From Bolinopsis microptera (taxonomy: Eukaryota; Ctenophora; Tentaculata; Lobata; Bolinopsidae): a stretch of DNA of 64,000 nt. Below are positions 12,248-27,900 of this stretch, in pieces. The notes below the pieces were generated by a model. The model saw only the letters and a program-made list of their open reading frames with translations, was not told where the DNA came from and made no database searches. The position numbers were made by a program, and so were the translations under genes. The stretch covers positions 17,822,837-17,886,836 of the forward strand of contig NC_087073.1 in the NCBI RefSeq assembly GCF_026151205.1, in the 5' to 3' direction. The stretch's first letter is position 1. Each line of letters opens with the position of its first letter.

Positions 12248-12713
12248 TTTTACTGTACTTAACGTAAACTCACGATTTACTTTTTTCCTTGCCGTACAAC
12301 AAATAACAGTGGCTTTTTAATTCTAAAACAAGGATATGTTAACAGTTGACGGTGGATGGACTGACTTTGGAGAGTGGTCGGTCTGTTCTGCTGATTGTGG
12401 AGGAGGTTCTCAAAGCAGGAGTAAGACCTGTACAAACCCAAGTCCAGCGAACGGAGGACAAGAGTGCGAGGGGGAAGATGAGGAGTCGAGGACTTGCAAC
12501 CCTGAACTCTGTCCAGGTCAGAGTACTTTTTATGTAACCAGCCATATATTTTAAAATAGTTTGAGTAGTAGGCGGTGGCATATTAGATGCACAAACTGAT
12601 TATGAGGACGTTTCGAAACAATATTAAGAGAATAAATCAAAAGGATGTGTTTTTAAACGTTAGGTATTATGTCTTTTATGGTACAAAACGATGTTTGTAA
12701 ATCAAAATAAAAA

Positions 12714-12889
12714 CAGCAAAACCCCGATTTACCGCGGAGTTTGGGGAAAGGAAACAACCACAGCAAATCGGGGTTTGCGGTAAATCGGAGTATTTTGTTC
12801 ACGTGTTAAGCCCTATTTAGGGGAAAGAAATATCCGCGGTAAATCGGGGTTTGCGGTAAATTGGGGCGCAGTAAATCGGAGTTTTACTG
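12714..12889 (-). mobile_element. Pogo-like MITE in left arm
   Basis: Ends cagcaaaaccccgatttacc and (complement) cagtaaaactccgatttact form imperfect inverted repeats; the right end abuts TA. Inside, the ccccgatttaccgc motif repeats in both orientations. The CAGTAAAAC...-type end with TA resembles pogo/Tc1-like elements. Sits in the intron between the two TSP1 exons. Mirrored at 25502-25677. Confidence 0.6.
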
Positions 12890-24900: not shown

Positions 24901-27900
24901 ATAATAAATAAAAATAAATAAATTATTATATGTTTAATTCCTGTCCGACAACGTTTTTAACAGTTCATTAATAACCTCAAATGTAAAATAACTTATTCCA
25001 CTTGATTTATTAATTTAATGTTAATTTGAAAGTTTTTTATTTTGATTCACAAACATTGTTTTGTACCATAAAATTCATTATAATACCCATCGTGTAAAAA
25101 ACACATCCTTTTGATTTGTTCACTAATTTTTTTTTTCAAAAGGTCTTCATAATCAGTATATGCATTTAATATGCTACCTTCAACTGCTCAAGCTGCCTTA
25201 AAATATGGCTGGTTACATAAAAAGCAATCTCACCATGGCAGGGTTCAGGGTTGCAAGTCCTCGTCTCCTCATTTTCCCCCTCGCATTCTTGTCCTCCGTT
25301 CGCTGGACTTGGGTTTGTACAGGTCTTACTCCTGCTTTGAGAACCTCCTCCACAATCAGCAGAACAGACCGACCACTCTCCAAAGTCACTCCATCCACCG
25401 TCAACTGCTAACATATCCTTATTTGTGAATTTAAAAGCCACTGTTATTTGTTGTACGGCAAGGAAAAATCAAAAAAGTAAATCGCGGGTTTACGTTAAGT
25501 ACAGTAAAACTCCGATTTACTGCGCCCCAATTTACCGCAAACCCCGATTTACCGCGGATATTTCTTTCCCCTAAATAGGGCTTAACACGTGAACAAAATA
25601 CTCCGATTTACCGCAAACCCCGATTTGCTGTGGTTGTTTCCTTTCCCCAAACTCCGCGGTAAATCGGGGTTTTGCTGTTTTTATTTTGATTTACAAACAT
25701 CGTTTTGTACCATAAAAGACATAATACCTAACGTTTAAAAACACATCCTTTTGATTTATTCTCTTAATATTGTTTCGAAACGTCCTCATAATCAGTTTGT
25801 GCATCTAATATGCCACCGCCTACTACTCAAACTATTTTAAAATATATGGCTGGTTACATAAAAAGTACTCTGACCTGGACAGAGTTCAGGGTTGCAAGTC
25901 CTCGACTCCTCATCTTCCCCCTCGCACTCTTGTCCTCCGTTCGCTGGACTTGGGTTTGTACAGGTCTTACTCCTGCTTTGAGAACCTCCTCCACAATCAG
26001 CAGAACAGACCGACCACTCTCCAAAGTCAGTCCATCCACCGTCAACTGTTAACATATCCTTGTTTTAGAATTAAAAAGCCACTGTTATTTGTTGTACGGC
26101 AAGGAAAAAAGTAAATCGTGAGTTTACGTTAAGTACAGTAAAACCCCAATTTACTGCGCCCCAATTTACCGCAAACCCCGATTTACTGCGTATATTTCTT
26201 CGGTCGAACAGTCGAACTATAAGAACGCCCACCAAGATCCGTATCTACAAGGCTGCTGTTACTACTATTCTGATATATGGAGCTGAAGTCTAGAACACAA
26301 CAAGGAAGCAGATGAAACGGTTTGAGGTCTTCCATCTGACCTCCCTGAGAAGAATCTTGAAGATAAAGTGGTTCTCCCGTGTGTCAAAAGAAGAAGTTCT
26401 TCTGGCATTAAGTCTATTGAAACTTTCATCGGTTCGGCTAGACTAAGGTGGTACGGACATGTTGTCAGAATGCCAGAGACACGGTTTCCCAATTTCTTAC
26501 TGGATTGGAAACGGCCAAATTTTTGAAAGAGACTGAGAGGACGACCCCGCAAAGTAGGGCATGTCGTGATATCATGGATCGCTTAGGTTCCACCAGGATC
26601 TGGTATTCCTCATAATTCTGCGGCCTCTATGGTTCGTCATCTCGCACAACTCTTTAAGAATCTTGTGAGTTTGGCGTGTGAAAATTTGCAGCCTTCCAGA
26701 CATTGATTGGGTCAACGAGGTGTCGTACGTCACCTCAAGATCGGGTGACAGGGGGCTGACCAGTGATCAGGCCAGAACCCAATTTATTGGGTCTGAGGTC
26801 ACGTGATTATGAGCCTGAGGTCACATGATTATGACGTCACCAGAGCTTGTTCTCCGAGCTCAAGCTACTTGATCAGGCCTTATATGGAATAATATAGTGT
26901 ATCGCGTGTAATTGGATCCAATTATAGGAGCTGCGCAATTATCGCAGCATATTGATCTGGTATCATCTTCTGAAACCCAGCATGCAAATTTTTTTCATTA
27001 ACAAATAATCCTTCTATTTTAAAATCTATGGCCCAGCTGCATGCGCATGCAGCTGGGCCATAGATTTTAAAATAGAAGGATTATTTGTTAATGAAAATCG
27101 AAGTGAAAATCATGTAACCCTATGTTTTCGAGGACGCTGAACACGATAAAACTGGTTATAATTATCATACTTCAGGGCAAATTGCTTTAAAATGACTTGA
27201 ATGTCATATATGTCATTATAACTATAAGCTAACCGACTAGACGCTTAAACTTGAATTCAATCAATGACAGCTCTAAGCAAAGGTGTAGGAAGCGGGGGGG
27301 GGGCAGGGGCCATCCCCCCATGGAATCTGGGCAAGGGGCCAAAAAGGGCCAACTTTTTAATTTAGGTTTCTAAAAATTGATGGGAAAAAATTTGTTCCCG
27401 AAAATTTTGAAAGTTTTCTTGAAAACTACTTTTGTTCATGTTTCATGCTTTTATGATCATTATAAGCCAAAAATATTTTTTTCGGTTTTCGAAGTTTGAT
27501 ATATGGTTTTGGACTCGAGGGTTCCCCTTTGTAATGCGATCTCGGTTAAGGCAGGCCTCCCCTTCGCAATACGAGCTCGGAAGCGGGAGCTCTGCTTTCA
27601 GAGGTACGTATCGAGAATGACTTGGACCGAAAATTTTCTAAGTCAAAATTTTGCAAAGTTTTTCTGGAAACTACTTTTGTTCATGTTTCATGCTATTGCT
27701 AGTGCTACCCTGATCATTCTGAGCCGAAAATATATTTTTCGGTATTTTGAAGTCCGTACCTACATTCGGAAGGATGTGGATGTGATACTGATTGGTTTCA
27801 CATACTAATTATAAAAAACGTGATATTTGGCCCACAGATTTGAAGGAAAATACGCAAATTTGGTCCTCAGATTTAAAGGAAAATGCGCAATTTGACGCGG

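Follow-up and report, generated by a model that had tools for sequence, protein, structure and literature searches.

A probable recent fold-back inverted duplication within a SRCR/TSP1 exon array of the ctenophore Bolinopsis microptera

How do two almost identical pieces of one gene come to face each other across a short hinge? The question is raised by a locus of the ctenophore Bolinopsis microptera (RefSeq assembly GCF_026151205.1, contig NC_087073.1), where two arms of about 6.3 kb lie in mirror arrangement within a tandem array of SRCR and TSP1 exons. The window, that is the whole stretch of 64,000 bases that was analyzed, corresponds to C2:17822837-17886836 (C2 being our handle for this contig), and the genome searched comprises 264.65 Mb in 232 contigs; coordinates without a contig refer to the window. 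The arrangement probably arose through a recent fold-back (template-switch) inverted duplication within the array. It is most likely a real duplication, very young, partial and ordinary in kind, the history of which is unusually easy to read, and its chief rival is an artefact of assembly.

The arms were aligned with BLAST at 99.716% over 6349 columns (12248-18583 against 26143-19797), with 3 mismatches and 8 gap openings. The left arm measures 6336 bases and the right arm 6347 bases, with 1213 bases between them. Their extents and principal contents are as follows.

12248-18583, plus strand: left arm by alignment, a start-less inverted copy with two N-type TSP1 exons, a LINE-like (long interspersed element) remnant, a CT microsatellite and SRCR1-TSP1-SRCR2-TSP1-SRCR3-TSP1-SRCR4.
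19797-26143, minus strand: right arm by alignment, interior of the source gene; the match to a paralogue runs past 26143 to 26896.
12346-12516, plus strand: left-arm N-type TSP1 exon, mirror of 26045-25875 (coordinates mirrored by arithmetic).
12987-13157, plus strand: left-arm N-type TSP1 exon, mirror of 25404-25234 (coordinates mirrored by arithmetic).
18101-18406, plus strand: left-arm SRCR4 exon, the final one ahead of the hinge.
14244-14778, plus strand: CT microsatellite, left copy.
23607-24147, minus strand: CT microsatellite, right copy.

Alignment with MAFFT places every difference between the arms at two sites. In the CT microsatellite (14282-14660 against 23725-24110) there are length changes of -2, +2 and +6 bases plus 3 substitutions, and a complex replacement in one intron (17995-18004 against 20376-20389) comprises 4 substitutions and leaves the right arm 5 bases longer; across the remaining ~5.8 kb of arm there are zero differences. 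The 6.3-kb inverted duplication described in the initial annotation is therefore present, 12248-18583 mirroring 19797-26143 at 99.7%, and the two places at which that annotation had the arms differ were both recovered, with no others. It had further called the arms head-to-head, which is wrong: the exons of the left arm lie on the plus strand and those of the right arm on the minus strand, so that both sets read toward the hinge and the arms are tail-to-tail. Among the contents it listed as shared, the microsatellite holds, as does an open frame (24178-24813, mirrored at 13578-14213) that we presume to be LINE-like, a label without support from Pfam, in which no family reaches the cut-off over 24178-24813. 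The shared miniature inverted-repeat transposable element (MITE) does not hold, as the one identified lies in the single-copy hinge; arm stretches 13200-14240 and 14780-15640 gave inverted repeats of only 18-23 bases, mostly A+T-rich, the rest of the arm being unsearched for MITEs. Elsewhere in the window, a second CT/GA microsatellite (46229-46603) gives an RE-repeat open frame.

Repeated units within a tandem array may resemble one another in any case, and the register of the likeness is informative here. Left and right units compared in register differ at 0 of 802 positions for unit 1, 0 of 802 for unit 2 and 4 of 802 for unit 3, all four inside the replacement, and off-register pairs among L1-L3 and R1-R3 differ at 5-18 of 802 (the R4 row, spoiled by the MITE, was left out). 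The arms are thus an ordered copy, and chance or array-internal similarity is ruled out as the source of their likeness. Outside the window, the longest inverted repeat of at least 98% identity in 136,835 bases, picked around paralogues and not at random, spans only 829 bases. The idea that an inverted layout is a habit of the SRCR/TSP1 family found no support, since 15 of 15 other clusters with at least two matches lie on one strand each among the matches listed, which were best candidates only, grouped by eye within ~50 kb and with 4 lone matches left out.

The gene from which the copy was taken can be followed on the minus strand through the right arm and beyond it on both sides.

18964-31932, minus strand: source gene, a hand-built model of 14 exons with 13 phase 1 introns, GT...AG.
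31533-31932, minus strand: first exon, encoding the first TSP1 behind a start that by eye is hydrophobic and signal-like.
18964-19269, minus strand: SRCR5 exon, of internal type with a GT donor.

After the signal-like start the order is five N-type TSP1, four SRCR-TSP1 pairs and SRCR5, giving nine TSP1 and five SRCR in a model whose gap at 30426-26045 could hold further exons. Exons after the first measure 171, 306 or 168 bases, the frame is open for 1102 codons when read-through of the final donor is counted, and Pfam called TSP_1 or SRCR in all five of the exon pieces sampled. No terminal SRCR/stop exon follows SRCR5 in the window; reading through its donor adds seven residues, GESILVS, and then a stop. 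In the paralogue at C2:17767.7-17770.5k the final SRCR exon bears its own stop. For the left copy no start exon was seen, 12248 being preceded by sequence collinear with the 3' flank of the paralogue. What was copied is the interior of a gene, with neither start nor stop exon, and not a whole gene.

Comparison with this paralogue, which lies ~65 kb upstream (C2:17765.8-17770.5k), also bears on which of the arms is the older. Its match to the right arm is one unbroken stretch that crosses 26143 and reaches 26896 (93%), and its match to the left arm begins only at 12248. Beyond that point to the left, the window instead resembles the 3' flank of the paralogue in seven pieces that keep order and orientation down to 5712 (12261-11953, 11357-11223, 11135-10862, 10861-10754, 9825-9696, 8608-8420 and 6427-5712), in a comparison that also lists short matches breaking this order or lying on the opposite strand. 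The piece nearest the join is given here.

11953-12247, minus strand: source-gene 3' flank; among the matches listed just one other covers it, in the corresponding flank of the paralogue (96%; 40 of 1028 candidates scored, mostly a repeat beside the flank piece).

In the paralogue ~5.3 kb separate the stop from the matching flank, and in the window that place is taken by a short interspersed element (SINE) and the inverted copy. Continuity across 26143 and the collinear flank left of 12248 together indicate that the left arm occupies the site expected for the 3' end of the gene. The comparison supports a native right arm and a derived left arm, and the source gene appears to have lost its 3' end to the duplication.

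The hinge between the arms and the outer edge of the copy preserve the remaining traces of the event.

18582-18939, plus strand: hinge SINE, a near-full-length, poly(A)-tailed member of a young family; 2 of its bases (TT) also belong to the arm.
18940-19796, minus strand: single-copy spacer of 857 bases with a TSP1 exon, a MITE-bearing intron and SRCR5; no partner in the left-arm register.
12244-12251, no strand: outer junction of left-arm copy and 3' flank, with a 4-base AAAA microhomology in the minus-strand reading.
19374-19567, no strand: MITE, an internally shortened relative of ~1.4-kb TTAA-flanked elements; one TTAA flank damaged, the other intact.
20376-20389, minus strand: replaced bases, one unit outward from the MITE at the equivalent TTAA intron site; found at one place in the genome.

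The SINE family is dispersed over at least 40 places, the hinge copy included (40 of 1090 candidates scored), with A-rich tails. Against 11 copies taken from the best-scoring loci, a sample biased toward likeness, the hinge copy departs from the column majority at 4 positions over 349 bases, of which three each occur in 2 of the 11 and one is private; the majority itself is matched fully by 7 of the 11. All 11 carry CGGC ahead of TTAG, which the hinge copy is without. To judge by box A/B-like motifs, its head may be that of a transfer RNA (tRNA), a view to which neither ARAGORN, with 0 tRNA genes for the window, nor Rfam, without a tRNA match over 18000-20500 at E up to 1, lends support. The poly(A) of the element adjoins the end of the array at 18940. 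At the outer join, GTACAGTAAAA is followed by flank GAAAGC, and the 4 bases AAAA are common to both sources; at the inner joins the SINE shares 2 bases (TT) with the left arm, and its tail shares 1 base with the array, as read by eye. Joins of this sort would suit template switching or end joining, and would suit contig joining, with its long overlaps, less well.

The MITE of the spacer has 166 bases in common with at least 39 other places (40 of 379 candidates scored). Related elements of 1.4-1.5 kb are bounded by TTAA on both sides in 8 of 8 paired rows, which amount to 6 distinct elements by their flanks, 3 of 11 loci having given no pair and been dropped. Such TTAA flanks mark piggyBac-like elements, and by the flanks of its longer relatives the MITE may be of this kind. 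The replaced patch of the right arm could be the scar of an imprecise excision. Borrowing from a paralogue is unsupported, as a 27-base pattern allowing up to 3 mismatches was found at a single locus in the genome. The difference implies that the two arms either went through separate histories or are different alleles.

Read on the minus strand, the locus runs from the array (31932-18964), which ends at 18940 without a stop exon, through the SINE to the inverted copy (18583-12248), the 4-base join and the flank. A break in the array, or a fork that collapsed there, could have produced such an order, the end being extended with the SINE, perhaps as complementary DNA (cDNA) primed at the broken end, since its poly(A) side faces the array. 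The new end would then have paired with a neighbouring strand and copied 6.3 kb backwards before AAAA allowed the copied end to be joined again to the 3' flank, at the cost of the terminal SRCR/stop exon and as much as ~5.3 kb of flank. Fold-back inverted duplications with a single-copy spacer of 766-70,466 bases and loss of distal DNA have been published; at their turns, in the cases covered by the part of the report cited, 13 of 21 junctions had 2-8 bases of microhomology, 5 had insertions and 3 had LINE/SINE homology (PMC3907307). The present locus fits these features apart from the distal loss, which is judged solely against the paralogue.

Several considerations tell against a fold-back origin. 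The evidence comes from one assembly, and the baseline for long inverted repeats in it from just the 136,835 bases mentioned. Loss of the 3' end would follow from comparison with a paralogue in place of an undisturbed allele, and some of the 5.3 kb in that paralogue could represent later insertions there. The SINE could have been present before the break instead of being captured by it. The microhomologies are short, those of 1-2 bases being no more than chance would give. No target-site duplication was seen at the hinge SINE, and as none is clear in the 11 compared copies either, its absence from the hinge is uninformative.

High-copy repeats are places where assemblies go wrong, and the hinge of this locus is a high-copy SINE; the reverse joining of two haplotypes, or of a chimeric or folded read, is the alternative to be taken most seriously, though we consider it unlikely. 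Wtdbg produced the assembly, long reads were used to close gaps, and haplotigs were purged, according to the portion of its description cited (PMC10232365). The animal that was sequenced was a cultured F3, and Californian animals are reported to be low in heterozygosity (PMC9585324, in part). Haplotypes could therefore yield near-identical arms, and small divergence alone is no argument against them. The form of the locus is what speaks against an artefact. The turn is asymmetric, with 857 bases of single-copy array and the SINE. A missed-adapter fold-back read gives a symmetric palindrome and is rejected on this ground. The left arm is sharp-edged at both ends, its outer join landing in native orientation in flank that is collinear with the paralogue, and the right arm alone bears a patch seen once in the genome, though two alleles could differ likewise. 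Both origins offered in the initial annotation can be judged from this evidence. Two haplotypes joined in reverse are disfavoured, as real rearrangement is favoured by the flank collinear with that of the paralogue, the spacer of single-copy sequence, a SINE placed exactly where the arms turn and the microhomology of the outer join. Of the pair, a young inverted gene duplication is preferable, with the amendment that the copy is partial, without start or stop exon.

Gene conversion within inverted repeats is well known, and an old inverted pair kept identical by exchange between the arms would explain why they agree at every base outside the microsatellite and one patch. This is very doubtful given that neither arm contains a partner of the hinge SINE, which is itself young, with 1 private change against the biased sample of 11 copies. 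Even less probable is that the left arm is an expressed gene with its last exon supplied by the SINE. An AG acceptor at 18580-18581 lies just inside the end of the arm, which stops right after it, and SRCR4 spliced into the SINE at this acceptor would keep its frame and terminate after ...CEGVVSGSVG; a single AG retained at a breakpoint can nevertheless be chance, no start exon was seen, and the sequence upstream of 12248 resembles the 3' flank of the paralogue. On the favoured account of a fold-back duplication, the predicted product is a 3'-truncated, otherwise open gene facing a partial copy that lacks a start. The source gene has presumably lost its polyadenylation site, and the likeliest effect of the rearrangement is neutral or mildly damaging.

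A separate matter is whether the rearranged locus could have acquired a function in RNA silencing. RNA transcribed through the hinge would pair over kilobases as a long hairpin matching the paralogues. In a natural hairpin-RNA locus, read-through of the right-hand gene would yield double-stranded RNA and, from it, small interfering RNAs (siRNAs) directed at SRCR/TSP1 paralogues; the locus would then be a newborn one, in which a SINE-associated fold-back removed the stop exon of a putative immune gene and the read-through feeds Dicer and silences the whole paralogue family. Hairpin silencing of this kind is possible, and we hold it to be rather improbable. The arms would serve well, being tail-to-tail, 6.3 kb long and 99.7% identical with a short loop of 1213 bases and no stop exon. 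The minus strand from 18960 to 15639 contains no AATAAA or ATTAAA, although polyadenylation hexamers are a weak guide. Perfect 21-mer matches to paralogues were also found: of 821 distinct 21-mers from the nine left-arm exons, the upstream paralogue region contains 515, a 20-kb stretch at C2:8.06M contains 264, stretches of 10 kb from contigs C81 and C3 contain 140 and 73 respectively, and a 27-kb control contains 0.

Dicer-type and PAZ matches are present in the genome. Dicer_dimer has a single match and PAZ 10 in all, and 0 of 14 control genomes matched either family. The Dicer_dimer match and a PAZ match lie 0.7 kb apart on the same strand (C2:9740304-9741557, minus strand) in a frame given as 1626 codons, and this is apparently the single Dicer of the genome, with its PAZ match barely over the threshold (29.0 bits against a cut-off of 28.8). 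In the related evidence from Mnemiopsis, as far as the cited portions extend, Dicer and Argonautes are present, endogenous siRNAs (endo-siRNAs) are abundant with structured precursors, and microRNAs are absent (PMC6211395, PMC3563456), which would favour a hairpin locus; unique endo-siRNAs in the same animal are, however, not biased toward coding genes (PMC6211395, in part). The duplication may also be too young for selection to have acted on it. An expanded set of 55 SRCR genes is described for Mnemiopsis, 12 of which changed on bacterial exposure (8 up, 4 down; PMC11797021, in part), and from this response the targets of any silencing may be immune genes.

Other inverted and tandem repeats occur in the vicinity and elsewhere in the genome. 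Within the window, 477 bases (4322-4798) are their own reverse complement at 92% and may be a fold-back element or a MITE with long terminal inverted repeats. Outside it, a 3.4-kb inverted repeat of 91.8% (C2:17801980-17805369 against C2:17817911-17821328) ends ~1.5 kb before the window and is followed by 1.4 kb that are their own reverse complement at 91.8% (C2:17821391-17822793). The 829-base inverted repeat lies at C2:8.05M (99.6%; 2849-3677 against 4554-5382 of the fetched stretch) and perhaps represents transposon ends. Further tandem SRCR/TSP1-like arrays are found at C2:8.06M, C3:20.33M, C81, C5:16.77M, C9:1.89M, C11:18.69M, C11:19.0M and C7:16.55M, each on one strand among the matches listed and with 68-89% likeness to the query unit.

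If real, the locus is a nearly unmutated snapshot of the birth of an inverted gene duplication, with both junctions readable, a retroelement at the turn and a paralogue that suggests the older state; if it is an error of assembly, it is a helpful caution about the tandem exon arrays of this genome. Such loci outside bilaterians could also, if real, seed regulation by endo-siRNAs.

Among known systems, the SRCR-rich, putatively immune genes of the ctenophore Mnemiopsis are alike in that the legend to the SRCR architectures names TSP1 as one of the domains, and differ in that no inverted array is described in the part of the source cited (PMC11797021). The hairpin-RNA loci of Drosophila that were born near their progenitors (hp58 and others) likewise consist of inverted copies of gene fragments with paralogous targets. 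Their siRNAs are shown to depend on Dcr-2, whereas the present locus is known from DNA anatomy together with Dicer and PAZ matches (PMC10317233, in part). In plants, Arabidopsis PAI1-PAI4 are tail-to-tail gene repeats tied to silencing of their relatives. Soybean GmIRCHS resembles our locus in its tail-to-tail inverted gene copies (PMC13051633) and maize MuK in its inverted duplication (PMC3431836), one fold-back transcript being described for each in the portions cited. All three differ in that silencing is reported for them, partly through DNA methylation, where the ctenophore locus offers anatomy. The closest comparison is with human fold-back inverted duplications, which have in common with it a copy beside the native sequence, a single-copy spacer, microhomology or an insert at the turn and, as far as the paralogue allows a judgement, distal loss. 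On the evidence of the part of that study cited, the human examples are large, many with terminal deletion, and their turn repeats are hybrids of two existing repeats, whereas the duplication in B. microptera spans 6.3 kb, is interstitial and re-joined to the flank of its own chromosome, and has a whole SINE inserted at its turn (PMC3907307).

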